This document shows positions 1,564 to 46,162 of a stretch of 64,000 bases of DNA, one piece after another. Source of the stretch: Lentzea guizhouensis (GTDB lineage: Bacteria; Actinomycetota; Actinomycetes; Mycobacteriales; Pseudonocardiaceae); the NCBI RefSeq assembly GCF_001701025.1, contig NZ_CP016793.1, forward strand, positions 682,001 through 746,000, written 5' to 3'. The notes below the pieces were generated by a model. That model was not told the DNA's origin, did no database searches, and was given only the letters and a program-made list of their open reading frames with translations. A program made the position numbers and the translations under genes. Numbering within the stretch: position 1 is the stretch's first letter; every line of letters begins with the position of its first letter.

Positions 1564-2751
1564 ATGGGCGTGTACGGGCTCGACATCAGCAACTACCAGT
1601 CGCGGCTCACGGACTACGGCGGGATCGTCCGCGACGGCTTCGAGTTCGTGTTCATCCTCGCGTCGGACGGCGAGTGGCGGCAGCCCTTCTTCCGGCAGCA
1701 GCTGGACGGCTGCCGGACTCGAGGTCTGCTGGTGGCGGCATACCACTACCAGCGGGAGCACGTATCTGCGGCACGGCAAGTCGAGATCATCGCGTCTCAG
1801 GTACCGAAGGACGTCCCGGTCGTTATCGACGTCGAGCACCACTCCGGGCGCGGCAAGGCCGGCGTCGACCTGTGCCGGGCGATCGTCGACGGCTTGCGCG
1901 CCCGCGGCTACCTGGTGCCGCTGGTGTACATCCCGCGCTGGTACTGGTCGGCCCCAGCCGACGCCCCGAAGGGCGGACTCGGCTACGCCGACCTCTCCGG
2001 CCTGCCGCCGCTCTGGGTGTCCTGGTACCCGGACTACCTGACCAGGACCAAGGAACGAGGTAAGGACGCGCTGCCCGCGTCCGTGTGGACCGGCTACGGC
2101 GGCCTGTGGGTCGCGGTGGCGCAGTACACCTCGTCTGGCCGGGTCTCCGGCTACGACGGCGCTGTTGATCAGAACTACTACCGCGGCAGCGTGCAGGAGC
2201 TCGCTGCCCTGATGGGTGGAGGTGTCGACGTGGCACTCACGCAAGGCGAGTACTGGGAGATCGAGAACCGGGCGTACGCCGCGGTCCGGAACCTGTTCTT
2301 CGACATGGCAGCAGGCAACAGCGCGGCGGCCGCGTCGTTCCAGCAGATGGTGTCCGGCGCGGTCGAGCCGCACTTCGCCGGCGTGCTGGCAGCGGTGGCC
2401 GGGATCGCACAGAACGCGGACATCACGCCGGAGGAGCTGCGGGAGGCAACCCTCGCAGCCGCGCTGGAGGCCGCGGGCAAGCAGGCGTCGCTGGTGTCCG
2501 ACACCCTGCGCGGCGACCTCGCGGCCATGACCGAGGAGGCGCTGCGGCGAGTCCAGGACGCCGACAACCTCGACGAGGCCAAGAAGACCGTCGACGAGCT
2601 GCTCAGCCGGATCAGCACGCTCACCGGCGCGCCGCCGTCCGTGGCGGACGTGAACGAGGACGGCCTGCGCGGTGGTGCCGCCGCACCGGACGGTGTGGGC
2701 GGCCCGACCGCAGACGACGCTGTGGGCGACGACACCGAGGAGAAGTTCTGA
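1564..2751 (+). CDS. Endolysin, GH25-like muramidase with C-terminal helical extension
   Basis: Encodes 395 residues with a strong ribosome site (GAGGAGGTGG) just upstream. Residues 1-220 form a GH25 (Chalaropsis-type lysozyme) barrel: it opens with YGLDISNYQ (Asp7) and has VVIDVE with Asp89 and Glu91 in the catalytic strand, plus the usual terminal D-x-N pattern (AVDQNYY). GH25 enzymes cut the MurNAc-GlcNAc bond of peptidoglycan. The last 170 residues are helical and Ala/Glu-rich without recognisable wall-binding repeats; they may mediate binding or oligomerisation. There is no signal peptide, consistent with release through the holin encoded directly downstream (TGATG overlap). Confidence 0.9.
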   Translation: MGVYGLDISNYQSRLTDYGGIVRDGFEFVFILASDGEWRQPFFRQQLDGCRTRGLLVAAYHYQREHVSAARQVEIIASQVPKDVPVVIDVEHHSGRGKAGVDLCRAIVDGLRARGYLVPLVYIPRWYWSAPADAPKGGLGYADLSGLPPLWVSWYPDYLTRTKERGKDALPASVWTGYGGLWVAVAQYTSSGRVSGYDGAVDQNYYRGSVQELAALMGGGVDVALTQGEYWEIENRAYAAVRNLFFDMAAGNSAAAASFQQMVSGAVEPHFAGVLAAVAGIAQNADITPEELREATLAAALEAAGKQASLVSDTLRGDLAAMTEEALRRVQDADNLDEAKKTVDELLSRISTLTGAPPSVADVNEDGLRGGAAAPDGVGGPTADDAVGDDTEEKF

Positions 2752-8767: not shown

Positions 8768-10855
8768 CTAGGCGACGCCCGCCGCCGTGCCGACCAGCTC
8801 GCCGTCGACTACGTCAACATGTTCGCTGAGTCCCCACAGCCCGTGCCCCATGTCCTTGACCAGCGGCGGCGTCTTCGCGCACATCCGCTTGACCGCCATC
8901 GACACTGCAGGCTTGGAGAGGTCGAGCTTGTCCGCGATGACGCCGAGCCGCACAGCCTGCTGGCCCAGGCTCCGGCGAGCCACCAGGAACGCCAGGATCC
9001 GCTCGTTGGTCTTCGGCGGCACCTGCACCCCGGAGTCCGCGAGGTTCGCGGCGATCGTCTCGCGGGCTTCTGCCTCGTCGTCCTCGTCGACGTCGAGCAG
9101 CTCGCGCCAGTTGTCGAACAGGTTGCCCTGCTCGTCGGCCATCGCCGCGTGGTCGGCGGCCGGGATCGGGGCCGGGTCGCCGGTCGTGGCCCACACGTAC
9201 GGGTCCTCCTGCCACGCGGCCCGCATCGGCGAGACCCGGCCGCCAGCGCTCGCCCGGTAGCCGAGGCCTGCGGTGCTGGAGCCGTCGGGGAAGACCGCGG
9301 GCAAGCTGGCGGGGTCGATGGGCAGCTGCATCGGCACGCCCATCTGCGCGGACAGCGAGTCGGAGGTACGGAAGATGACGATGTTGGTCGAGGACAGCAT
9401 CGAGCGGACGGCGAGGTCGCCGCCGAGCTCGCTGAGCGACGGGATCTGCACGAAGATGATCACGGCGACGCCGTGCTTGCGGCCCTTCTTGCCGATCGCG
9501 GCGATGATCCGCCGGCACTCGGGGTCGGCGAGCACGTCGGGCGCCTCGTCGATCACGCAGTACACCGCGGGGTCCTCGGGTGTCGGCGTGAAGTACCCCC
9601 GCCCGCGACGGGTGCGGCCGTGCTCGTCGACCCACGTCTCCTTCGAGCGACGGCGCTTCCGCGCGTTCATGATCCGTTCGGCGCCCTGCAGCATCCGCCG
9701 GATCCTGGGTAGCGTGCCGGCGAAGCAGTGCGCGCCGAGCTGCCAGTCCCGGACGGACTCGCCGCCTTCCGGGTCGGCGAGAAGGAGCAGCGCGCGTCCG
9801 CTGTGGCGGATCTCCGCGCACAGGTTCATGAGCAGGCCGGACTTGCCTGCGCCGGTGGTGCCGGCGACCATGCCGTGGTTGACGCCGGAGCCTGGTGTCC
9901 AGAGCCGCCACAGCGCCGAGGTGCGGTCAGCGTGGACACCGATCTCGAACTCGCCGGTCGTGTCGTTGAGCGTCGGGCCCTCGAACGTGCGCGGCTTCAT
10001 CAGCGGGTTGTCGGTGAGCACGAGCAGCCGTGCGACGTCCTCCATGCCGTCAAGGGGCGGCTCGACGACGACCTGGGACGCTGGCACCCGGTAGACCTTC
10101 GCGATGCGGCGCGCGGCGGCCACTGCGGACTCGCTGTTCTGGGCGTCGGTGAGCGGCAGCTGGATGAGCGCCTCCCAGCCGCGGCCGGTGGGCATGCCCT
10201 CGTCGTCCCGCAGGTCGTCGACGCCGACCAACATCGAGCCGGGCAGCGCACCGCCCTCGCACGCGATGTTCGTCATCCAGGCCTCGACGCGCTGGTCGAG
10301 GATCCGGTTGGGCAGCTCCTCCTCGACGGTCTCTACCGCGTGCTGGGTGTCGCGGATGTGCCGGTGGATCACCCACCATGCCTCGAGGCCGAGTGCCGCG
10401 GTGAGCAGCAGACCGGGCATCGGGGTCGTGAACGGGCTGATGGCGGAGGCGGTCACGGTCCAGGTCGTCGCCGCTGCCCAGACGATCCACGAGACCACCA
10501 GCGAGCGCAGCATCCACTCCTCGAACGCGCGCCATGCCCAGTACTGGTTCCAGCCGAGGACCACGCCGGCGATCACGCTGAGCACGAGCGCGGTCTTCCA
10601 GCCGTCCTCGGCGAAGCTGAGGCCTGCGGAGGCGGCGAACATGCCGCTGGCGGCGATGATGGGCCAGAGTCGGGATCGGTGCCGGTAGCCGGTGCGGATG
10701 CCAGCCCGCGCACCGCGTACAGCGTTGCGGCCCACCCATGCCGCTGCGCGCCGCTTGCGGCTCCACCCGGCGCGCTTCATCTCCTTGCGGAGCTGGGAGT
10801 AGTTGGGCCGCACGTAGTGGGTCGCGGCAGTCGGTGGCACGCGATCCGGGTTCAC
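8768..10855 (-). CDS. FtsK/SpoIIIE-type membrane DNA translocase (TraB-like)
   Basis: A 695-residue protein. A basic N-terminus is followed by four membrane segments (about residues 65-155), a linker domain, a RecA-like motor with Walker A AGTTGAGKSG (about residue 330) and Walker B VYCVIDEA (about 430), and a C-terminal winged-helix (about 615-665, LGVIADKLDLSKPAVSMAVK). This is the layout of the single-protein double-stranded-DNA pumps of actinomycete conjugative plasmids and ICEs (TraB/TraSA) as well as of FtsK. The closing wHTH would recognise specific DNA repeats. Because it is followed by small membrane proteins and a DUF2637-like protein on the same strand, a conjugation-type role is more likely than chromosome segregation. 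Phage genome packaging is unlikely because packaging motors lack membrane segments. Confidence 0.85.
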   Translation of the reverse strand: MNPDRVPPTAATHYVRPNYSQLRKEMKRAGWSRKRRAAAWVGRNAVRGARAGIRTGYRHRSRLWPIIAASGMFAASAGLSFAEDGWKTALVLSVIAGVVLGWNQYWAWRAFEEWMLRSLVVSWIVWAAATTWTVTASAISPFTTPMPGLLLTAALGLEAWWVIHRHIRDTQHAVETVEEELPNRILDQRVEAWMTNIACEGGALPGSMLVGVDDLRDDEGMPTGRGWEALIQLPLTDAQNSESAVAAARRIAKVYRVPASQVVVEPPLDGMEDVARLLVLTDNPLMKPRTFEGPTLNDTTGEFEIGVHADRTSALWRLWTPGSGVNHGMVAGTTGAGKSGLLMNLCAEIRHSGRALLLLADPEGGESVRDWQLGAHCFAGTLPRIRRMLQGAERIMNARKRRRSKETWVDEHGRTRRGRGYFTPTPEDPAVYCVIDEAPDVLADPECRRIIAAIGKKGRKHGVAVIIFVQIPSLSELGGDLAVRSMLSSTNIVIFRTSDSLSAQMGVPMQLPIDPASLPAVFPDGSSTAGLGYRASAGGRVSPMRAAWQEDPYVWATTGDPAPIPAADHAAMADEQGNLFDNWRELLDVDEDDEAEARETIAANLADSGVQVPPKTNERILAFLVARRSLGQQAVRLGVIADKLDLSKPAVSMAVKRMCAKTPPLVKDMGHGLWGLSEHVDVVDGELVGTAAGVA

Positions 10856-10888
10856 AGCGGTCCTTTCTGAACGGGTTCGTGCTGGTGA

Positions 10889-11110
10889 TCAGGCGCGAGT
10901 CAGGTAGCGCCGGTGATTGCTGTCGATCTGCTCCATCGCCGCGTGCACCCGCTGCAGCTGCATGTGCACGTGTTCGGTGTCGTCCGGCTTGGTCAGCAGG
11001 AGGTCGTTGAGCTGCGCAGCGGTCGTCGCGAGGGCCGTCTTGAGGTCGCTCTCGATGACGTCGAGGGCAGCGTTGACGCGCTCGTCGGTGCTGAGGCGGT
11101 GTCGCAACAT
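10889..11110 (-). CDS. Small helical hypothetical protein
   Basis: A 73-residue protein starting at ATG 11110 (GGAG 6 nt upstream). It is entirely helical by composition, with Leu/Ala heptads and several His residues near the C-terminus (EHVHMQLQRVHAAMEQID). It lies between the FtsK-like gene and a hairpin. No family is recognised; it may be an accessory of the transfer-like module. Confidence 0.65.
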   Translation of the reverse strand: MLRHRLSTDERVNAALDVIESDLKTALATTAAQLNDLLLTKPDDTEHVHMQLQRVHAAMEQIDSNHRRYLTRA

Positions 11111-11140
11111 GGTCGGCTCCGTCCTAGGTGCTGAGGTGTC

Positions 11141-11181
11141 CTGGCAGCCCACCGACCTGAAGAAGGCCGATGGGCTGCCAG
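11141..11181 (-). terminator. Hairpin after the 11195-12181 gene
   Basis: An 11-bp perfect stem CTGGCAGCCCA/TGGGCTGCCAG (11141-11151 with 11171-11181) has a 19-nt loop. It may attenuate transcription between upstream membrane genes and the FtsK-like gene. Confidence 0.6.
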
Positions 11182-11194
11182 CACGCTCAGTGCC

Positions 11195-12181
11195 TCAGGC
11201 TGCGTAGAAGTTGTTCTGCGCGGAGGCGTTCAGCTTGTTGAGGCACTCCTCCGCCGCAGCCTTCCGCCCCTCGGCCGCGGCGATTCGATCGCGCGCGAGC
11301 CGCATCCGGTCGGGGTTCGTGTCCACGAGCTTGCGGGTGGCGGCGACGGTCTCCGTGTCGATCTGGGCGCTGACCAGCGAGGCCGCCATGGTCTCCACAC
11401 GCGCCACGTCCTCCTGCGCGCGCTTGATGTCGCCCTGGGCGTCCTCCAACTCAGCGGTGGCCTCGCGAATCACCGCCTCGATCTCGGTCTTGTACTGCTC
11501 CTTGGTGAGCACCTCGCCGCCGGTGCGGGTGTCGATCATGTCCGGGTTCTCCTTGCTGTTCTGGTGTTGGTGTGAGTTGCCTTGTTCAGCACTGTCATCA
11601 GCTTGGGCTTCAAGCTCCTTCGCTTCACGCTCCTTTGCTTCCCGCACGATCTCGCTGTGAGCAATCCTCAGGTGCTCCGGGCACGGGTTTTTCTTGCAGA
11701 AGACCGGAATGAGATGCCCGGCCGGGCACTCCTCGTAATCAACCTCCTCCGCGCACATTCCGGCTTCCCAGAGGTTGTTGAAATCGGCTGCGGTGCGCGC
11801 GAGATGCACCTCGCAGAAGGCCGCCTGGTTTGGCCACATCTGCGCTTCTTCCTCAACGTGGCGCTCGGCGGTACCCATCCGCAGGGTCTCGCCGCGATGC
11901 TTTCCACGTGCCCAGTTCTCGCGCCAGCCGTCTCTGAAAGCGATCCACACCGCTTCCCACGACGTGACGGTGACAGCCGCTTTGGCACCCGCCTTTGCCG
12001 CAGCACGCGCAAGGCCCGGCGCCTGGCCGCTGTCGAGCGCTTCGGTGACAAGCTGTGACTTGTGCGCCTTGTACTCGGCTTTCTCCACACGGCGCTTCTG
12101 CCACGCGCTCCAAGCACGCGCCGGGGACTTCGTGACCGCGTACCAAAGCGCTATCACGAAGATGATCAGTAGCCATCCCAT
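11195..12181 (-). CDS. Membrane-anchored coiled-coil protein of the transfer-like module
   Basis: A 328-residue protein. Residues 1-17 form a membrane anchor, then a basic helical stretch follows. There is a central Cys-containing segment (CEVH, CAEEVDYEECPAGH, FCKKNPCPEH) that could bind zinc, then a Gln/His/Asn linker and a long Glu/Lys/Ala coiled coil (about residues 225-320). The family is unknown. It stands 12 nt downstream of the next membrane protein gene, so the two are co-transcribed. A spread-protein-like or scaffold role is inferred from context only. Confidence 0.7.
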   Translation of the reverse strand: MGWLLIIFVIALWYAVTKSPARAWSAWQKRRVEKAEYKAHKSQLVTEALDSGQAPGLARAAAKAGAKAAVTVTSWEAVWIAFRDGWRENWARGKHRGETLRMGTAERHVEEEAQMWPNQAAFCEVHLARTAADFNNLWEAGMCAEEVDYEECPAGHLIPVFCKKNPCPEHLRIAHSEIVREAKEREAKELEAQADDSAEQGNSHQHQNSKENPDMIDTRTGGEVLTKEQYKTEIEAVIREATAELEDAQGDIKRAQEDVARVETMAASLVSAQIDTETVAATRKLVDTNPDRMRLARDRIAAAEGRKAAAEECLNKLNASAQNNFYAA

Positions 12182-12193
12182 TGTTGCTCCCGA

Positions 12194-12700
12194 TTACAGG
12201 CCGAAACCGGCCATGATCAGCCAGGCGAAGAGTTGGACGACGCCACCGAGCACCCACGTCAGCACCATTCCCACTGTTCCGGGCACGACACCTGCGGTGA
12301 TCGAGAGAGCTCCGCCGCAGATCAAGGTGCGGCCGGTGATGCCATTACCCGAGTTCACGCCCAGCTTCGACAGGACTGTGGCGAGGGGGTTCTTACCGCT
12401 GAACTGTCCGAACACGTTGAGGATCACCACGAGCGCCAGAGCCACGGCGATCAGGATGATCAAGGCGACGCCGGTGTACTTCCCGACCGGCGTCGACAGC
12501 CTGACGAGCCACTCAACGAGGGAACGCAGCCAGCGTCCGATGGGCGTGGCCATGATGCCGGCGACTCCGGTGATGGTGAGGCCGAGTACGACCGTCCTCC
12601 ACATCTGGCCGCCGACCGTCCACATCAGCAGGGCCACGAGCAGGGCGATCGCGCCGACGGCTCCGGTGACGCCGCTCATCCAGGTCCACGTGCCGGTCAT
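12194..12700 (-). CDS. Integral membrane protein, four hydrophobic segments
   Basis: A 168-residue protein with ribosome site AAGGAAGGAGAG. Hydrophobic segments lie at about residues 11-28, 36-52, 75-96 and 140-165; the loop between the third and fourth contains a conserved-looking NG/GKNP region. The size and topology resemble the small Spd/TcpC-type membrane proteins of actinomycete conjugative elements, but no sequence motif proves it. It is encoded between the DUF2637-like and coiled-coil membrane genes. Confidence 0.68.
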   Translation of the reverse strand: MTGTWTWMSGVTGAVGAIALLVALLMWTVGGQMWRTVVLGLTITGVAGIMATPIGRWLRSLVEWLVRLSTPVGKYTGVALIILIAVALALVVILNVFGQFSGKNPLATVLSKLGVNSGNGITGRTLICGGALSITAGVVPGTVGMVLTWVLGGVVQLFAWLIMAGFGL

Positions 12701-12829
12701 GTTGTCGCTCTCCTTCCTTGACTACGTTCCGTGTTGGTCGTTACCCTGCGGTCTCGTGCGCGCGGGCGCGCTCGCGCGCGGTGTGCCCTCCCCCGCCCCG
12801 TCCGCCGGGCGTGAAATTCACCGTGAACA
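12701..12829. other. Intergenic stretch with repeats
   Basis: 129 nt without a gene. It contains a GC-only inverted stretch near 12756-12782 and the palindrome GTGAA-A-TTCAC near 12810, downstream of the 12830 stop. A promoter for the membrane genes could lie here; none is clear. Confidence 0.35.
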
Positions 12830-13063
12830 TCACCGCGAGTCACGGGGTCCCGCCTCGATACCGAGCGCGATGTCCCGCAGCTTGGCTGCCAGCTCGCGCC
12901 ACGCCTGCTTCTGCTGTTGCTCCGGCAGGTCCCTCACCGCGGCCCGCGCTCGGTCCCACTCGACGGCCGCTTGTGCCGCGGGCGTGGTGGCGGACGCGTA
13001 TCGGCCAGCCCAGTGCTGGGCGGTCCTGTCCGGCTTTGCGGAACCTGTCCGTTCCGTTTTCAT
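12830..13063 (-). CDS. Small charged hypothetical protein
   Basis: A 77-residue protein starting in an ATGA overlap with the DUF2637-like gene. It is Arg/Ala/Gln-rich and helical, with a central WDRARAAVRDLPEQQQKQAW helix. No family is recognised. Translational coupling suggests it works with the upstream membrane protein. Confidence 0.65.
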   Translation of the reverse strand: MKTERTGSAKPDRTAQHWAGRYASATTPAAQAAVEWDRARAAVRDLPEQQQKQAWRELAAKLRDIALGIEAGPRDSR

Positions 13064-14511
13064 CGCTCGTCCTGCTTCTTCCGGAGCTTGGCGAGCACCT
13101 TGCGCGCATGCTGCTCCGACGCCCCCGTCGCCTGCGCTGCTTCCGGCCCGGTGATCTCGTCTGCGCGAGCACCCGCAGCCAACCGCTTCTCGAAGTACGC
13201 GGTCACCAACGCAGTGAAGTCCTGGCGAGCGTGGCGCGCGCTCCGCCGCACATGGCGAGCGCTCCTCGACGAGCGGGGAGCGCTCGCCTCCGGGTGAGCG
13301 GCGCTCACCGAAGAGCGCTCCTCGTCGCGGACGTCGGACGCGCTCTCCAAATGCCGCTCATCCGCACCGCTCACAGCACCTGAACTGGCCTGATGCACTT
13401 CGGTGAGCGCTTCAGGAGCGGCTTTTTCGTCCGTTGCAGGAGCGTCGGATGCGCCCTTGAGCCACTGCTCAACATCGAGCATGAGGCAGTCGATCCCCGC
13501 CGTGATCGTGGCGTCCGCGAGCGTTCCCTGAGCGCTCTCGCTCACCGCCGCTCCCGTGATGGAGCGCTCCTCGGCGCGCTTCTGGAGCGCCTCCGAGTGC
13601 CGTGGTGAGCGCGCGGGAGGAGCGCTCACCACGGCAGCTGACGGCGGGCTGACGACGCGCCCGAACACCAGTCGGAACAGCCACTGGTTGCGCGCCGGCG
13701 TGACCGCGCCCGCTCTCGGGGTGCCAGGAGCGGCGCCCATCACCTGAGCCCAGGTGATGCGCCATGCCGTCGATGCCGTCATGGCCCCGTCGGCTGCAGC
13801 CCACAGGTCGACGGCCCGGCGCCAGAGGAATGGGTGGAAAAGACGCCGGAGGAGTGCGGCGCGGATCTGGTCGGCGGTGCGCCCGGATTTCGCGACTTTC
13901 TGCAGGGTGACGTAGCGGTGCCAGATGTACGGGCCGACGAGAGAGGCGGATCCGAGAACGATGCCGACGGAAAGCTCATGGAGACGGACGACGCCGTGGT
14001 AGCCGTTCATGATTGCCGCAGCGGTGGACCAGTACCACATCTTGCGGATGTCAGCCGCCGCAGAAAGACCCTTACCGGTCAGGTAGTCGGCGTTGATCGC
14101 GAATGTCCATGTGGCGCCAGTGACGATCATCGAAAGCAGCACCGGCATGAAAAGAAGCACCGTCGGCCAGTTCAGGTCGCCGTAGAACATGAGCTGCCCG
14201 ACAAATTCGACGACCAAGCAGACGCCAGCCATAACCACGGCGGCGAGCAGCGGTCGATCGTCGGCGATTCGGTTGCGGAATGCGCGCCAGCGTGCTCGAA
14301 CAGCGGCACGGGCGGCAGCGGCCTTCGACTCCTTGGCGGCGTCGGCGCGGGCGACCTTCTCTTCCTCGTAGGCGTCATGCGCCTTGGCGAGCTCGATGTC
14401 CTTGAGCTGGAGCTCGCGCTTGTCGAGTTCGGCCTGCTTACGCAGCCGGAGCTTTTCCGCGCGCCGACGTGCCCACCAGCTCGGTGCGCGTCGGCCTGCT
14501 CGGTTGCTCAC
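13060..14511 (-). CDS. DUF2637-like membrane protein with C-terminal winged helix
   Basis: A 483-residue protein with GTG start. A basic coiled coil (residues 5-75) precedes four membrane segments (about residues 88-190, including VMAGVCLVVEFVGQL, then TVLLFMPVLLSMIVTGATWT and YWSTAAAIMNGYHG). A polar, Ser/Ala/Glu-rich region of 200 residues follows, and finally a helix-turn-helix-like end (EITGPEAAQATGASEQHARK). This layout is that of DUF2637/SpdB2-type proteins found on Streptomyces plasmids and actinomycete ICEs, where they help plasmid spread. The assignment comes from memory of the family layout and is not certain. It is the first gene of the transfer-like operon. Confidence 0.72.
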   Translation of the reverse strand: MSNRAGRRAPSWWARRRAEKLRLRKQAELDKRELQLKDIELAKAHDAYEEEKVARADAAKESKAAAARAAVRARWRAFRNRIADDRPLLAAVVMAGVCLVVEFVGQLMFYGDLNWPTVLLFMPVLLSMIVTGATWTFAINADYLTGKGLSAAADIRKMWYWSTAAAIMNGYHGVVRLHELSVGIVLGSASLVGPYIWHRYVTLQKVAKSGRTADQIRAALLRRLFHPFLWRRAVDLWAAADGAMTASTAWRITWAQVMGAAPGTPRAGAVTPARNQWLFRLVFGRVVSPPSAAVVSAPPARSPRHSEALQKRAEERSITGAAVSESAQGTLADATITAGIDCLMLDVEQWLKGASDAPATDEKAAPEALTEVHQASSGAVSGADERHLESASDVRDEERSSVSAAHPEASAPRSSRSARHVRRSARHARQDFTALVTAYFEKRLAAGARADEITGPEAAQATGASEQHARKVLAKLRKKQDER

Positions 14512-14551
14512 TGCTCGGTCCTTCCTGCTCGGCCTCGTTCGGGGCCATCGG

Positions 14552-14605
14552 TGTACACGTTGTCATAGTTTCTATGACAACTCAAGTGCGGTTATGATCG
14601 CGCCG
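14552..14605. promoter_or_regulatory. Divergent promoter with 10-bp perfect palindrome
   Basis: The palindrome GTTGTCATAG-TTT-CTATGACAAC (14559-14581) lies between divergent starts at 14511 and 14605. On the minus strand TTGTCA (14580-14575) and TGTACA (14557-14552) are 17 bp apart and could be the promoter of the transfer-like operon, with the palindrome covering it. On the + strand TATGAT (14593-14598) sits 7 nt before the GTG, which predicts a leaderless mRNA. Confidence 0.65.
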
Positions 14606-14871
14606 TGAAACTGCGTGAATGGGCCGAGCAGCAGGGCGTCAGCTGGCGCACGGCCCACCGCCGTTTCCACAGGGGCGAGATCCCCGGCGCCTTCCAGACA
14701 TCCAGCGGCCGGATCTACGTGGAGGTCGACGCCGACGACTGCGACGGCTCGTGCGTATCTGACCTGCACCTGAAGTGCCTCATCGAGAAGATGACCAGCG
14801 CCGACGTCGATCAGCTCGCCCAGCGTTTCGCCGAGGCCGGGTACGTGATCGAGCGCCGCCCGCAAGACTGA
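14605..14871 (+). CDS. MerR/IS607-type HTH regulator of the transfer-like operon
   Basis: An 88-residue protein. The start MKLREWAEQQGVSWRTAHRR, then FHRGEIPGAF and SSGRIYVE, is the DNA-binding head found at the N-terminus of IS607-family serine recombinases and MerR-like regulators. The catalytic recombinase domain is missing; a short Cys-containing helical tail (SCVSDLHLKC) replaces it. It is divergent from the DUF2637-like gene and next to a perfect palindrome, so it is the likely repressor or activator of the block at 8.8-14.5 kb. Its 3' end overlaps the convergent kinase gene by 61 nt. Confidence 0.75.
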   Translation: MKLREWAEQQGVSWRTAHRRFHRGEIPGAFQTSSGRIYVEVDADDCDGSCVSDLHLKCLIEKMTSADVDQLAQRFAEAGYVIERRPQD

Positions 14872-31612: not shown

Positions 31613-31939
31613 TTACTTCTTGTCGCCAAGCCCCATCTTTCGAAGGCGTTCCCTGCGGCCGAGGTGCGGTTTGCACCGCAGGCACGGCCTGGGGTTGTCG
31701 GCGTCTCGGTCGATCCAGCCCTTCTTGCACCTGGGGTCCATGCATGCGCCGTCGTCTGCTGTCGTAGCTGGCAGGGGGAGCAGTGCCTCCTGCTTGGTGC
31801 TGTTGCATGCGGGCTCGACCGGCAGGTCATCGGCCTGCTCTGGCTCGGTCGGTTCACCGAAGCGGTCTGGCATGGCGATCGGCTCCACGAGGCGAAGGTG
31901 GCGTCGGCGGCGAGGTGCGGTGCGGCGGTCAGGAAGCAC
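31613..31939 (-). CDS. Small protein with C-terminal zinc-finger-like motif
   Basis: A 108-residue protein, GTG start (11-nt overlap with the upstream gene); ATG at 31873 with GGAG upstream is an alternative. The C-terminal 40 residues read C-M-DPRCKKGW...CLRCKPH, a CxxxC...CxxC zinc finger, with a basic tail. Terminator directly after the gene. Confidence 0.64.
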   Translation of the reverse strand: MLPDRRTAPRRRRHLRLVEPIAMPDRFGEPTEPEQADDLPVEPACNSTKQEALLPLPATTADDGACMDPRCKKGWIDRDADNPRPCLRCKPHLGRRERLRKMGLGDKK

Positions 31940-33125
31940 TGGGGATCACCTCGGTGCTGATCTCTGGATGAGCGGCTTGCAGGGAGGCCAGCAGCTGGTT
32001 CCGCCGCTGCTGTTCCTGCTCGGGGGTGAGCAGTTCGCGCCCCTCCGACTGGGCGCGCAACTGCGCCGAGGTGGTGGCCGCAGGACGCCTTCGGCGGAAC
32101 CCCTCGACGGCGACTGCGCGTGCCTGCTCGGTTGCTGGCGGCGGCACGGCCCGTGGGTCACGTGGGCTGGCCTCGTTGATGACCGCCCTCGGTCGTTGCG
32201 GCGTGCTCGTGCCCGGCGGGGTTGGTGCTGGTGAGGGAATCGGCAGCTCGTCGGGCGCGATGGCGCGGGCAAGGTAGCTGGCCGCGTTGCGAGTGGCTTG
32301 CCGGAGCCGGCCTCGCAGGTGAACGTCGAGCTCGGCGAGAGTCTGGCCGTGCTCGATCACCGCCGCGTGGACGAGTACGGCCAGTTCGTTCGCCTTGGCA
32401 CGATTCGGTCGTTGCCCGTCAGGCCACGGCAGCGCGGCGATCAGCGCAAGTGCTTCGGCGAGGTCGTGTTCGCTGGGATTCGCGCGCTTGTGCTCGACCG
32501 CGGCTGGCTCGGCCAGCCGAGCCGCGGTCTCCTCTTCCGTCCTCCCTCCCTCCCTTACGGTCGGGAGGACGGAAGAGGGAAGGGGGTCGGTGCTGACCGA
32601 CCCTTCGGTGGTCAGCACCGACCCTTCGGTGGTGGTGACCGACCCTTCCACGGTCAGCACCGACCCTTCTTCAGCGGAAGGGGTGGCGGAAACCGACCCT
32701 TCCGCAGTGAAAGGACTGTTGACGGACGACCCTTCGGGCGTGGAAGGGTCGGTCGCAGCGGGCCCTTTGTTCGGCAGTTTGCAGGTGCGGCAGGGACACC
32801 CTTCTGGGGCCGGAAATTCCGGCATCCTGTACCGAGGCACACGTCCTCGGAACGCGTAAACGGGGCTGCCGTTCTTGTCCTCACCGAGAGGCACGCGGAC
32901 GTCGAGCTTGCGCTCCTTGGCCAAACGGCGCAGCACCTCTTGAACGCCGTTGATCTTCAGCTTCATGCGCCGGGCCAAGTCCGCCGTGGAGCAGTCGCAC
33001 TCGCGGGCATCAAGCCGCGGGTCTGCGCCGCAGTACTCGGCGATCACGACGAGCAGCAGCGTCTCGGCTGGCGTGAGATCAGCCGGCGCGTGGTCGAGGA
33101 CTTCCTCGACGAGCTGCCAGGTCAT
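31929..33125 (-). CDS. Replication-initiator-like wHTH protein with internal repeats
   Basis: A 398-residue protein. The first 90 residues form a winged helix (TPAETLLLVVIAEYCG, then STADLARRMKLKINGVQEVL) of the type used by plasmid and phage replication initiators. A low-complexity middle made of EGSV-T-T units follows, then an Ala/Glu/Arg-rich helical region and an unstructured Pro-rich end. It occupies the replication slot between the recombination genes (RecT/YqaJ) and Gp37/Gp68. No helicase, primase or polymerase is visible, so the element probably uses host machinery. The repeats in the middle also form iteron-like DNA (32599-32750). Confidence 0.72.
   Translation of the reverse strand: MTWQLVEEVLDHAPADLTPAETLLLVVIAEYCGADPRLDARECDCSTADLARRMKLKINGVQEVLRRLAKERKLDVRVPLGEDKNGSPVYAFRGRVPRYRMPEFPAPEGCPCRTCKLPNKGPAATDPSTPEGSSVNSPFTAEGSVSATPSAEEGSVLTVEGSVTTTEGSVLTTEGSVSTDPLPSSVLPTVREGGRTEEETAARLAEPAAVEHKRANPSEHDLAEALALIAALPWPDGQRPNRAKANELAVLVHAAVIEHGQTLAELDVHLRGRLRQATRNAASYLARAIAPDELPIPSPAPTPPGTSTPQRPRAVINEASPRDPRAVPPPATEQARAVAVEGFRRRRPAATTSAQLRAQSEGRELLTPEQEQQRRNQLLASLQAAHPEISTEVIPSAS
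32599..32750 (-). repeat. Iteron-like direct repeats, candidate replication origin
   Basis: GACCCTTC occurs at 32599, 32620, 32641, 32662, 32695 and 32728, spaced 21, 21, 21, 33 and 33 nt. An inverted copy GAAGGGTC lies at 32743. The spacing is close to whole helical turns (two or three), so the copies face one side of the DNA. They lie inside the replication-initiator-like gene. Confidence 0.68.
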
Positions 33126-38737: not shown

Positions 38738-39958
38738 ATGGGAAGAAGACCGAGGCCGATCGGCACCTGGGGAAAGATCACGATCACGCTAATCGGCCCC
38801 AAGAAGTGGCAGGCATACGCCAGGTACCGGGACGTCGACGGCCGGCTGAAACCAATGCAGCGGATCGGCACCTCGAAGTCCGACGCCGAGGACAACCTCA
38901 AGAAGGCTCTGGCCGAGATCGTCAGCACCTTCGGCTCCGCCACGCTTGACCGCCACAGCCGGCTCAAGAAGGTTGCCGAGGCGTGGCTGCAGGAACTGCG
39001 TGAGGATTCGGCCGCTGGCGACGTCGCCTCAGGGACTCTGCGCAACTACTCAAGCTGGACGAACAACTGGGTTATCCCAAGGCTCGGAAACCTCGTGTTC
39101 GGAAATGGCGAGGTATCGGTGGGCGCCTGCGAGGGATTCATCAAGGCAGTTCGCCGAGAGAAGAGCCTTGACAGTGCGCAGGCGTGCCGAACCGTTCTTT
39201 CGATGATCTGCACGTTCGCGATCAAGCACAAGCTGATCGAGCACAACCCTGTGCGATCCGCGAAGCAGATGAAGAAGACGTTGGACGATCACAAGGAAAT
39301 CCTGGCGATGAACGCCGCTCAGCGGACGGACATGCTTAACGCCTTGCGGGAGTTCGGCGAGAAGAAGCAGTTCGATTCGATGAACCGTTCACTCGGCGAG
39401 CGCGGAAAGGTCTGGCTCGATCTTCCCGACCTTGCGGAAGCAATGTTGGTGACCGGGGTTCGCATCGGCGAGATCATGTGCGTTCATGGTGACGAGGTGT
39501 TCCCCGCCGAGAAGAAGGTGCTGATCGCTCATCACATCGATCGCGTCAGCGGCAAAGGGCTCGTGCGGCAGCCCGGCCGCAAGGGGGGTCTGCCGCCGAT
39601 CGTGAAGTTCATCCCGGACTGGTCGATACCGATGTGGCGCCGACGGAAACTGGCGTCGGGTGGTGGCGTGGTCTTCGCGTCCTGGGCCGGCGGCCTGCTC
39701 GACCCGAGCACGCTTCACCATCGCCTGCGTGAGGCGCTCGACGCGTGCGGTTACGAGTGGGTCACGTCTCACGTGTGGCGGAAGACCTACGCGCTGATCT
39801 TGAAGGAGGCGGGCTTCACCGACGAGCAGATCGCCGAGGAGCTCGGGAACACCGTGCGGGTGGCGCGGCAGCACTACATCCCGCGGGCGCTTGGGTCTCA
39901 GGCTGCGGCGGCGGCCCTGCAGGCGGCGTTCGAGCCATCAGCCGAAAGTGCAGACTAA
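38738..39958 (+). CDS. int: Tyrosine-family integrase
   Basis: A 406-residue protein. N-terminal arm-binding-like part (residues 1-60), core-binding helical domain (about 60-190), catalytic domain with R242 (TGVRIGEI), H345-x-x-R348 (SHVWRKT) and nucleophile Y380 (RQHYIP). It ends 67 nt from a tRNA-Asn 3' end. It recombines attP with the tRNA gene. The length and motifs are those of actinophage integrases. Confidence 0.96.
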   Translation: MGRRPRPIGTWGKITITLIGPKKWQAYARYRDVDGRLKPMQRIGTSKSDAEDNLKKALAEIVSTFGSATLDRHSRLKKVAEAWLQELREDSAAGDVASGTLRNYSSWTNNWVIPRLGNLVFGNGEVSVGACEGFIKAVRREKSLDSAQACRTVLSMICTFAIKHKLIEHNPVRSAKQMKKTLDDHKEILAMNAAQRTDMLNALREFGEKKQFDSMNRSLGERGKVWLDLPDLAEAMLVTGVRIGEIMCVHGDEVFPAEKKVLIAHHIDRVSGKGLVRQPGRKGGLPPIVKFIPDWSIPMWRRRKLASGGGVVFASWAGGLLDPSTLHHRLREALDACGYEWVTSHVWRKTYALILKEAGFTDEQIAEELGNTVRVARQHYIPRALGSQAAAAALQAAFEPSAESAD

Positions 39959-40023: not shown

Positions 40024-40025
40024 GG

Positions 40026-40070
40026 CTCCCCCAACTGGACTCGAACCAGTAACCCTGCGATTAACAGTCG
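40026..40070. other. Likely attachment site (attB/attP junction)
   Basis: The tRNA-Asn 3' half is the probable integration site, because int ends 67 nt away and the tRNA remains intact. The second copy of the core should lie at the other end of the element, left of the window. The exact core cannot be defined here. Confidence 0.65.
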
Positions 40071-43704: not shown

Positions 43705-44580
43705 GTGACCACGGCCGACGTCTTCGGACTGCACCGCGCGCACCTGATCGGTGTCGCCTACCGGCTGACCGGCAGCGTCGCGGACGCCGAGGACGCCGTG
43801 CAGGAGGCGTGGCCGCGGTTCGCGAAGGCCACCGGGATCGAGGACGCGCGCGGCTGGCTCACGACCGTGGTGAGCCGCATCTGCCTGGACCGGCTGCGCT
43901 CCGCCGCCGTGCGCCGGGAGACCTACGTGGGCTCGTGGCTGCCGGAACCGCTGCTCACGACCGGTGAGGACGACGACCCGCTGGCCGCGGTCGTGCGGGC
44001 GGACGGCGTGCGCATGGCCGCGCTCGTGGTGCTCGACCGGCTCACCCCCGACCAGCGCGTGGCGTTCGTGCTGCACGACGCGTTCTCCATGCCGTTCGGC
44101 GAGATCGCCGATGTGCTCGGTGTCTCAGAAGCCGCCGCACGCCAGCACGCCTCCCGTGCGCGCAAGGCCGTGGCCGGTGCCGAACCCCCTCCCCGCGCGG
44201 CGCTCGCCGAGCAGCAGGAGGTGCTGGAGAAGTTCCTCCGGGCCATGTCGAGCGGTGACGTCGAGGCCGTGCTGGGGCTGCTGCACCCGGAGGCGGTGAT
44301 GGTCGGCGACGGTGGTGGCAAGGCGCGCACGGCGGTCCACACGGTCACGGGCGCGGAGAAGATCGCCCGCTTCTTCTTCGGCCTCATGCGCAAGTACGGC
44401 TTCGACGAGACCGGCATGCCGGTGCTCCGCCCGACGCTCGTCAACGGCGACCTGGGCGTGGTCATGGCCAGGACGGGCGAGGCGGCCCAGCGCGTGATCA
44501 CCATGGCCGTGCACGACGGCAAGGTGCACGCCGTGTACGACTTCGCGAACCCGGACAAGCTCGGGCACGTCGCCTTCTAG
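43705..44580 (+). CDS. ECF41-group sigma factor with SnoaL-like C-terminal
   Basis: A 291-residue protein, GTG start. Sigma-2 region (RLTGSVADAEDAVQEAW), sigma-4 region (FGEIADVLGVSEAAARQHAS), the linker motif WLPEP (YVGSWLPEPL) and a C-terminal SnoaL-like domain ending with NPDKL. WLPEP and NPDKL are hallmarks of the ECF41 group, whose extension controls activity in place of an anti-sigma factor. ECF41 genes usually sit next to a carboxymuconolactone decarboxylase/oxidoreductase/epimerase gene, which fits the AhpD/CMD-like gene at 46168. Confidence 0.93.
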   Translation: MTTADVFGLHRAHLIGVAYRLTGSVADAEDAVQEAWPRFAKATGIEDARGWLTTVVSRICLDRLRSAAVRRETYVGSWLPEPLLTTGEDDDPLAAVVRADGVRMAALVVLDRLTPDQRVAFVLHDAFSMPFGEIADVLGVSEAAARQHASRARKAVAGAEPPPRAALAEQQEVLEKFLRAMSSGDVEAVLGLLHPEAVMVGDGGGKARTAVHTVTGAEKIARFFFGLMRKYGFDETGMPVLRPTLVNGDLGVVMARTGEAAQRVITMAVHDGKVHAVYDFANPDKLGHVAF

Positions 44581-45349: not shown

Positions 45350-46162
45350 CTACCACCGCAGTCGCAGCAGCTTCCCGACGTCGCGCAGCTTCGGGATCGC
45401 GCTGACGAGTCTCATCTGGATCCTGCCGGACCTGGGCAACGCGTCCAGGTGCGGCAGGTCCACGCTGCGCCAGGCGTCCACTGTGGTCAGTCCGGGGTGC
45501 AGCGCCTCGACCTCGCGCGGATCGTCGACGCCCCAGTGCAGCGTCGCTCCGGCGTTGCGCACGGCCGGAACGAGCTTCTGCATCTTGATGCCCCACGACC
45601 CGTAGACGTCGAACAGCAGCTCGCCGCTCTCGAACCGGGAGGTGATGCGCCTGATCAACGAATGCCCCTCGGCCTGCGTGAGGTACATCGACAGCCCCTC
45701 GAACACGGCCACGACCGGCCGCGCGGGCGACACCGCGTCGAGCCACTCGTCGTCGGTGACCGACGACGCGACGAGCCGGTACTCGCCGTCCGGCACCGGC
45801 AGGAGCTTGTGCCGCAACGCCACCACGTCCGGCAGGTCGACGTCGACCCATCGCACGGTGTCCGGGCGTTGCAGCCGGTGCACGCGCGTGTCGAGACCGC
45901 ACGCGAGGTGCAGCACGGTGCACGACGGCGTGCGGCGGATGAAGTCCGCGGTCCAGTCGTCGAGCACCTTCGCCCTGATCGCGACGCCGACCGCGGTCGT
46001 GGTGGTCATGCCGGTCCTGGCGAAGTCGTAGTCGATCCGGTCGACCGCGCGGCGGGCCTCCACGTCGTGCAGCACCGAACCCGCTCGCCCGCTGTCCAGC
46101 GCCCTGCCGTACAGCGTGGCGAGCATGGTCTCCTGCGCTCCGGTGAGCGTGATCTTCTCCAC
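45350..46162 (-). CDS. SAM-dependent methyltransferase (LCM/PPM-like)
   Basis: A 270-residue protein, GTG start 6 nt after the preceding gene's stop. Motifs VLHLACGLDTRVHRL, VRWVDVDLPDVVALR and VVAVFEGLSMYLT are characteristic of leucine carboxyl methyltransferase-like (PPM/TIGR00027) enzymes. The substrate is not predictable. It shares the operon of the AhpD/CMD-like gene and thus probably the ECF41 promoter. Confidence 0.83.
   Translation of the reverse strand: MEKITLTGAQETMLATLYGRALDSGRAGSVLHDVEARRAVDRIDYDFARTGMTTTTAVGVAIRAKVLDDWTADFIRRTPSCTVLHLACGLDTRVHRLQRPDTVRWVDVDLPDVVALRHKLLPVPDGEYRLVASSVTDDEWLDAVSPARPVVAVFEGLSMYLTQAEGHSLIRRITSRFESGELLFDVYGSWGIKMQKLVPAVRNAGATLHWGVDDPREVEALHPGLTTVDAWRSVDLPHLDALPRSGRIQMRLVSAIPKLRDVGKLLRLRW

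Follow-up and report, generated by a model that had tools for sequence, protein, structure and literature searches.

A putative conjugation-type DNA-transfer operon in an integrated siphophage of Lentzea guizhouensis and a DNA-level repeat array inside its first gene

Among the described systems closest to the locus studied here, pZL12 is both a phage and a conjugative plasmid. Transfer of pZL12 requires the major tra gene and two adjacent genes (PMC3583192), pSLE1 is a plasmid replicon with ParA/ParB (PMC4487206), and PhiNon1 of Nonomuraea gerenzanensis occurs as a circular form and as a prophage in the 3' end of a tRNA-Val gene (PMC5431353). AICEs are defined by tRNA integration, an integrase and an FtsK/SpoIIIE-type Tra protein, with replication via RepSA, RepAM or Prim-Pol, and a survey of these elements set aside fragments without one module as likely remnants, prophages or other islands (PMC3218068). 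As for cis-acting sites, TGACACC is the DC1 repeat of the clt of pWTY27 and is bound by TraA (PMC3583192), and a further source remarks that even for the AICE pSAM2 a clt motif had not been described (PMC9513070).

The locus compared here with these systems lies in Lentzea guizhouensis, in a stretch of 64,000 nucleotides (the window; positions 682001-746000 of the single-contig, 10.0 Mb genome, NZ_CP016793.1) that covers part of a prophage of 87,181 bp integrated at tRNA-Asn (Table 1). The gene set of a temperate tailed phage looks complete: the large terminase subunit (terL, phrog_38, E 3e-64), the portal (E 4e-49), the major head protein (E 2e-19) and the tape measure protein (E 2e-73) lie left of the window, and lysis genes, integrase and att are present. 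A preliminary description of the block, made from its sequence, had placed it between phage lysis and early genes, which agrees with the endolysin on one side and RecT, YqaJ, two DNA methylases and DUF5131 on the other; it had also made the phage nature of the element depend on capsid and terminase genes to the left, and both were found, so that the element is not merely an ICE. Prim-Pol gave two matches in the genome and none in the prophage, and ParA-type proteins (PF13614) gave ten in the genome and none in the prophage, which is the integrated copy; a search of the genome for DUF3631 gave no match, and its control gave none anywhere either. The phage replication origin likely lies within an initiator gene, namely the 398-aa gene, which holds seven copies of the iteron AAGGGTCG and is without a match in Pfam at 0.001. 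The left part of the prophage contains a further gene for a tyrosine recombinase (L010:319-1320; window -39681..-38680), in addition to the integrase.

Table 1. Features of the transfer block and of the surrounding prophage, in window positions; negative positions lie left of the window.
Feature	Position	Strand	Basis
Endolysin	1564..2751	+	E 1e-34
FtsK/TraB-like DNA translocase, 695 aa, C-terminal winged helix	8768..10855	-	profile, structure model
Small operon protein, 73 aa	10889..11110	-	
328-aa protein, one N-terminal hydrophobic segment	11195..12181	-	hydropathy, relative in prophage G391
168-aa membrane protein, five hydrophobic segments	12194..12700	-	hydropathy scan
Small protein, 77 aa	12830..13063	-	position matches 77-93-aa proteins of relatives
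483-aa protein at DUF2637 position: membrane N-part, linker, C-terminal HTH	13060..14511	-	alignment
Array of six GAGCGCTC inside the 483-aa gene, candidate cis-acting site	13257..13627	.	repeat scan, shuffles
Candidate operator: perfect inverted repeat, 10-nt arms	14559..14581	.	inverted-repeat match
Divergent 88-aa HTH protein, candidate regulator	14605..14871	+	excisionase/regulator-like, weak matches
398-aa gene with AAGGGTCG iterons at 32598-32751	31929..33125	-	repeat scan
Tyrosine integrase	38738..39958	+	adjoins att core
att core, 41 bp, in tRNA-Asn	40025..40065	.	exact repeat at window -47115..-47075

The block itself (8768-14605) is, as had been proposed, a single leftward operon accompanied by a perfect palindrome and a divergently oriented HTH gene: the ORF calls agree, with six minus-strand ORFs occupying 8768-14511 (GC3 0.79-0.93), and the palindrome arms (14559-14568 and 14572-14581) are 100% complementary. 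Longer imperfect inverted repeats of the CCGAGCAG type lie outside the palindrome at 14511-14534 and 14621-14636, at the starts of both divergent genes. The small membrane proteins claimed for the operon are likewise borne out by the hydropathy scan, in the form of the 168-aa protein, which is related to proteins of prophage G391 (E 3e-9) and of plasmid L132 (E 3e-4), and the 328-aa protein, related to a 284-aa protein of G391 (E 3e-15). No relatives of the 73-aa protein were detected.

The translocase has an intact Walker A motif (GTTGAGKS at residue 332). In its AlphaFold model (mean pLDDT 82.7) the motor core is preceded by helices at the N-terminus and followed by a winged helix at the C-terminus, and the model gives matches to the motor of FtsK (E 3e-13) and to TcpA (E 7e-12), a coupling protein of conjugation; in a structure search, most of the top BFVD matches were unnamed. 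A profile match over the full length (599 columns, E 1e-104) joins the protein to the translocases of linear plasmids, of one phage-plasmid and of other prophages. Although the best NCBIfam match is plasmid TraB (E 8.5e-14), the score against the curated TraB model NF041214 is far below its cut-off (51 bits versus 800), and we therefore call the protein TraB-like rather than TraB. A hydropathy scan at a threshold of 1.5 marks zero membrane segments, so that the membrane part is taken from the model and from homologues, the counterparts in G391 and plasmid L131 showing hydrophobic segments. By its model, the protein is thus an FtsK-like motor with a C-terminal winged helix and N-terminal membrane helices, the composition typical of the class; motor and winged helix stand as previously described, and the membrane location is carried by the model and the homologues. 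Scans of the genome and of viral contigs with the single translocase sequence gave no match, and Clostridia-type genome matches from an alignment scan, 24-30% identical over the motor only, were set aside.

The proposal that this is a known core of actinomycete conjugative elements is supported by the same operon on linear plasmids and at AICE-like loci. A protein search, in which 7991 candidates were scored, gave at least 54 matches at E<=1e-10, the window's own included; the nearest 13 relatives among the matches listed are 57-70% identical to the translocase, relatives of the 483-aa protein are 67-71% identical, and three translocase/483-aa pairs lie on equally long contigs. Among plasmids, 160 records match the translocase at E<=1e-3; the best among the 60 of them that were listed have a coverage of 52-74% and an identity of 30-34%. 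Six of the best-matching plasmids, all linear, were read over ~25 kb each around the operon, and all six share one order: first gene, ~90 aa, ~155-185 aa, ~290-430 aa, a small gene and the translocase, with extra small ORFs inserted in two. The first gene is annotated as DUF2637 in four of them, and no annotated phage genes occur in these ~25 kb. Within the same family, 13 of 390 genomes, including the window's own, match at E<=1e-40; nine of the 12 other chromosomal loci have the operon together with small HTH and regulator genes, by which they were judged by eye to be AICE-like, and the remaining three are without gene calls. At those nine loci (11-20 kb fetched each) a small phage marker set gave no match. 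The linear plasmids L132, L135 and L136 share GCTGTGAC/CTGTGACA repeats in the gap after the ~90-aa gene, a candidate for the clt of the plasmid form.

Set against the described systems, the prophage combines features of several. With the Streptomyces plasmid-phages pZL12/phiZL12, pSLE1 and pSAM1 it shares a size of ~85-93 kb, phage structural genes and a translocase operon that begins with the gene at the DUF2637 position, phage genes and transfer operon thus lying on the same element; those are, however, plasmid replicons with ParA/ParB, whereas the studied element is integrated, their operon lies at the terminase rather than at the lysis genes, and the pSLE1 translocase is only 24% identical to that of the prophage. 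PhiNon1 is alike in its integration at a tRNA 3' end, in its operon by the lysis genes and in its terminase, portal and capsid, but its translocase is 30.9% identical over 52%, the phage is 59 kb long with an opposite-strand ORF inside the operon, and its first gene has no significant array (13/200). AICEs of the pSAM2 kind also have tRNA integration, an integrase and an FtsK/SpoIIIE-type Tra, and an integrase with att inside a tRNA gene is what we find here, yet the studied element has the full virion gene set and no Prim-Pol match in the prophage. TraB of pSVH1 and TraA of pWTY27 resemble the translocase in the FtsK-like motor, the C-terminal winged helix and the repeated sites (PMC3583192); compared with their clt, the prophage array lies in another gene and, in relatives, tracks the HTH of that gene. 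Phages with a transfer operon are already known; the present element, in which an integrated prophage of 87 kb from a different phage lineage carries one, is a variant.

Neither is the combination as unusual as the preliminary description had supposed. The module was sought in other prophages and found with terminase or capsid genes in several contig types of IMG/VR, with two, 16 and six members. In the first of these, two contigs of 56-57 kb, the translocase is 43-44% identical to that of the prophage, and the two genes upstream of it lie in the same order, preceded by a DUF2637 gene. In one of the two, prophage G391, the PHROGs identify a large terminase subunit of another family (phrog_9, E 4e-43), a portal (1e-77), a head protein (phrog_29, 8e-48) and a tape measure protein (3e-18), and BLAST finds no match between its structural genes and those of the studied prophage. 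A second translocase type, named after G397, is present on 16 contigs, G397 and G422 among them; in 14 of these the order of the small genes ahead of the translocase is unchanged, the other two beginning in or just before the translocase, and a relative of terminase, portal or capsid was found in 8 of the 16 with a small marker set, the terminase of prophage L142 of this type being confirmed by PHROGs. The pSLE1 type comprises six contigs including pSLE1 itself, with a terminase in all five examined. In addition, the pSLE1-type translocase has matches at E<=1e-30 in 73 plasmids, 60 of which were listed. Of nine relatives fetched, eight (six recorded as circular, two as linear) carry a terminase or capsid gene next to the operon; the ninth, L186, has neither beside it. 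The same gene order in unrelated prophages and phage-plasmids, with pZL12 and PhiNon1 as precedents, means that such hybrids are not unique; in the open-licence literature we found no description of the module recurring across unrelated siphophage backbones. Nor was it simply inherited with the structural genes: of 34 records searched with the translocase profile, two of them translocase records and the other 32 drawn from 70 terminase relatives (many being fragments), five matched, namely the two known ones and the terminase relatives G397, G422 and G416, which carry a divergent translocase (27-30% identical to that of the prophage) upstream of the terminase.

The first gene of the operon requires a more cautious name than it had been given. 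Its 483-aa product resembles a DUF2637 protein in position and architecture, but a family match at the sequence level is lacking: no Pfam family, DUF2637 (PF10935) included, matches at E<=0.1, and profiles of two sets of counterparts at the DUF2637 position do not match it; membership in the family was thus not detected. Among the counterparts, DUF2637 is matched in G391 (E 5e-11), G416 (E 2e-5) and plasmid L132 (E 2e-18), G397 falls under the cut-off, and plasmid L131 and prophage L142 have no match.

Inside this gene lies the array of GAGCGCTC: six of the eight copies in the prophage fall within 371 bp, and of six places in the genome with close pairs of the motif, three are here. Synonymous shuffles that keep protein and codon usage fixed reach the array score in 0/300 cases, which here rules out a by-product of peptide repeats, an explanation that we accept for the linear plasmids. 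In the same kind of test the other five operon genes show no significant array, only the AAGGGTCG iteron gene lies at <=1/100 among 29 other prophage genes of at least 250 aa, and none of 47 control genes is at 0/100. The raw count of six is not exceptional, as commoner 8-mers reached maxima of 4-8 in 20 Markov-3 sequences; when clusters are scored for rarity, only the iterons stand above the array in the prophage, a short tandem of CGTGACTA being about level with it. Four copies of CGTGACTA lie within 38 bp at window -44055..-44018, and the prophage has no others.

Beyond the prophage, the shuffle test gave 0/300 for G397 and for G416, 11/300 for G391, 44/300 for G390 and 268/300 for G422 against a whole-contig background, and 0/300 for pSLE1 and 20-130/300 for the six linear plasmids against that of the ~25 kb locus. 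Against loci of 10-25 kb, six of nine phage-plasmids lie at <=1/300 (L178 at 4/300 in one frame, L184 at 43 and L185 at 21), compared with none of 14 G397-type loci (G397 itself at 2/300) and none of seven non-phage plasmids; at four AICE-like loci the first gene lies at 47-166/200 and one other gene at 1/200. The array is thus a feature of some phages and phage-plasmids rather than of the operon in general. A known clt motif was rejected as the cis-site of the prophage, since TGACACC, TGTGACA and GACCCGGA form no cluster there. A DNA-level repeat array inside the first operon gene was not found described in the open-licence literature.

Comparison of the phage-plasmids suggests which protein might read such an array. 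Four of them, with C-terminal HTHs 72-87% identical, carry CGGCTCA 10-12 times in the gene at the DUF2637 position and 1-3 times in the remaining 16-24 kb, whereas that gene has 0-1 copies in the remaining five. Across all nine, motif similarity tracks the identity of this HTH (Mantel r 0.89, 34/5000) and neither that of the translocase (-0.01, 2097/5000) nor that of its winged-helix end (0.13, 1282/5000). By rank correlation the association with the HTH is weak (0.30, p 0.07), and the N-part of this protein gives a higher value (0.59); common descent of the four genes therefore contributes to the sharing of the motif: they are indeed related, with N-parts 67-80% and linkers 52-75% identical. 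The pSLE1 translocase, on the other hand, is closer to those of the motif-less L178 (78%) and L179 (65%) than to those of the motif-bearing L180, L181 and L183 (49-52%). The CGGCTCA copies are found in either orientation and in every frame, and of 22 aligned sites six are present in all four genes and 11 in one gene only, the copy number staying at 10-12; this turnover at constant number suggests that the set of sites is maintained. By this comparison the likelier reader of the array in these relatives is the HTH of the membrane protein itself; the translocase is only second choice, because the motif does not follow it. The array might serve partition or autoregulation rather than transfer.

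Judging from sequence, the block is probably a conjugation-type DNA-transfer operon of a temperate siphophage, with a candidate self-encoded anchoring site in part of the elements that carry it. A phage genome and a plasmid-type DNA-pump operon lie on the same element, and two routes of spread are therefore possible, so that the element may travel by DNA transfer between cells in addition to virions. The divergent HTH regulator would leave the palindrome, allowing the operon to be made; the 483-aa protein, with its N-part in the membrane, would bind the array within its own gene through the C-terminal HTH and tether the circular excised form at cross-walls, or where hyphae touch, in a presumably mycelial host; the translocase ring and the small membrane proteins could then pump the double-stranded circle into the neighbour, and the element would spread without lysis. 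More tentatively, and with more doubt than confidence, many actinobacterial siphophages might be dual-mode, moving as virions and by plasmid-style transfer of a double-stranded circle, with a self-read centromere-like array rather than a clt as the cis-locus in part of them; a DNA-binding protein that reads its own coding sequence would mean that protein and site always travel together. If this is true, some prophages can leave the cell without killing it, and gene flow and host range in these bacteria would have to be reread; the self-encoded array represents a directly testable candidate cis-site.

The module adjoins the lysis genes in the studied prophage, G391 and PhiNon1, an arrangement that would also suit spread within the mycelium only, in which phage DNA is moved through cross-walls after infection or induction, raising the yield but not reaching other strains. 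We regard this as unlikely, as the same operon occurs on plasmids and at AICE-like loci with no phage gene seen nearby. Still less probable than such intramycelial spread is a role in the virion, packaging, superinfection exclusion or defence, which weak P-loop matches of the translocase to Mad8 (E 2.5e-9), HerA and a terminase PHROG (E 0.001) might suggest: the prophage has its own terminase, the operon is present on non-phage plasmids, and among 50,697 phage records the studied translocase matches only short FtsK-like stretches in 18 Bacillus phages and one Staphylococcus phage, although cultured Streptomyces phages share the terminase of the prophage. The G397-type and pSLE1-type translocases have no match at 1e-5 in these records. 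In the plasmid, phage and chromosomal records examined, relatives thus lie on plasmids, at AICE-like loci and in prophages and are not mainly phage genes with a virion role. It is equally improbable that the block is a passenger or a decaying plasmid or ICE remnant without function in the phage, as the missing Prim-Pol and ParA family matches in the prophage and the 483-aa protein without detectable DUF2637 signal might indicate, given the high GC3 of all six ORFs, the intact Walker A, the array kept at the DNA level and the close relatives of both proteins, three pairs of them on equally long contigs.

Some further observations concern the prophage and its relatives. In the head gene region a TROVE/Ro60-type RNA-binding protein is encoded (PF05731, E 6e-17; L009:3136-4779, window -16864..-15221), adjoined by four tRNA genes (ARAGORN: Met, Glu and two Ser; L009:4833-5263), of which those for Met and Glu alone pass the tRNA threshold of Rfam, and in prophage G391 a TROVE gene likewise lies next to the transfer operon. 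In the G416 record, four TGACACC copies are found just before the translocase gene (43710-43757) and TGACA repeats after it (45795-45907). In the G391 record, an early gene holds 25 of the 27 AACCGCGC copies of the contig, at 9964-10415.
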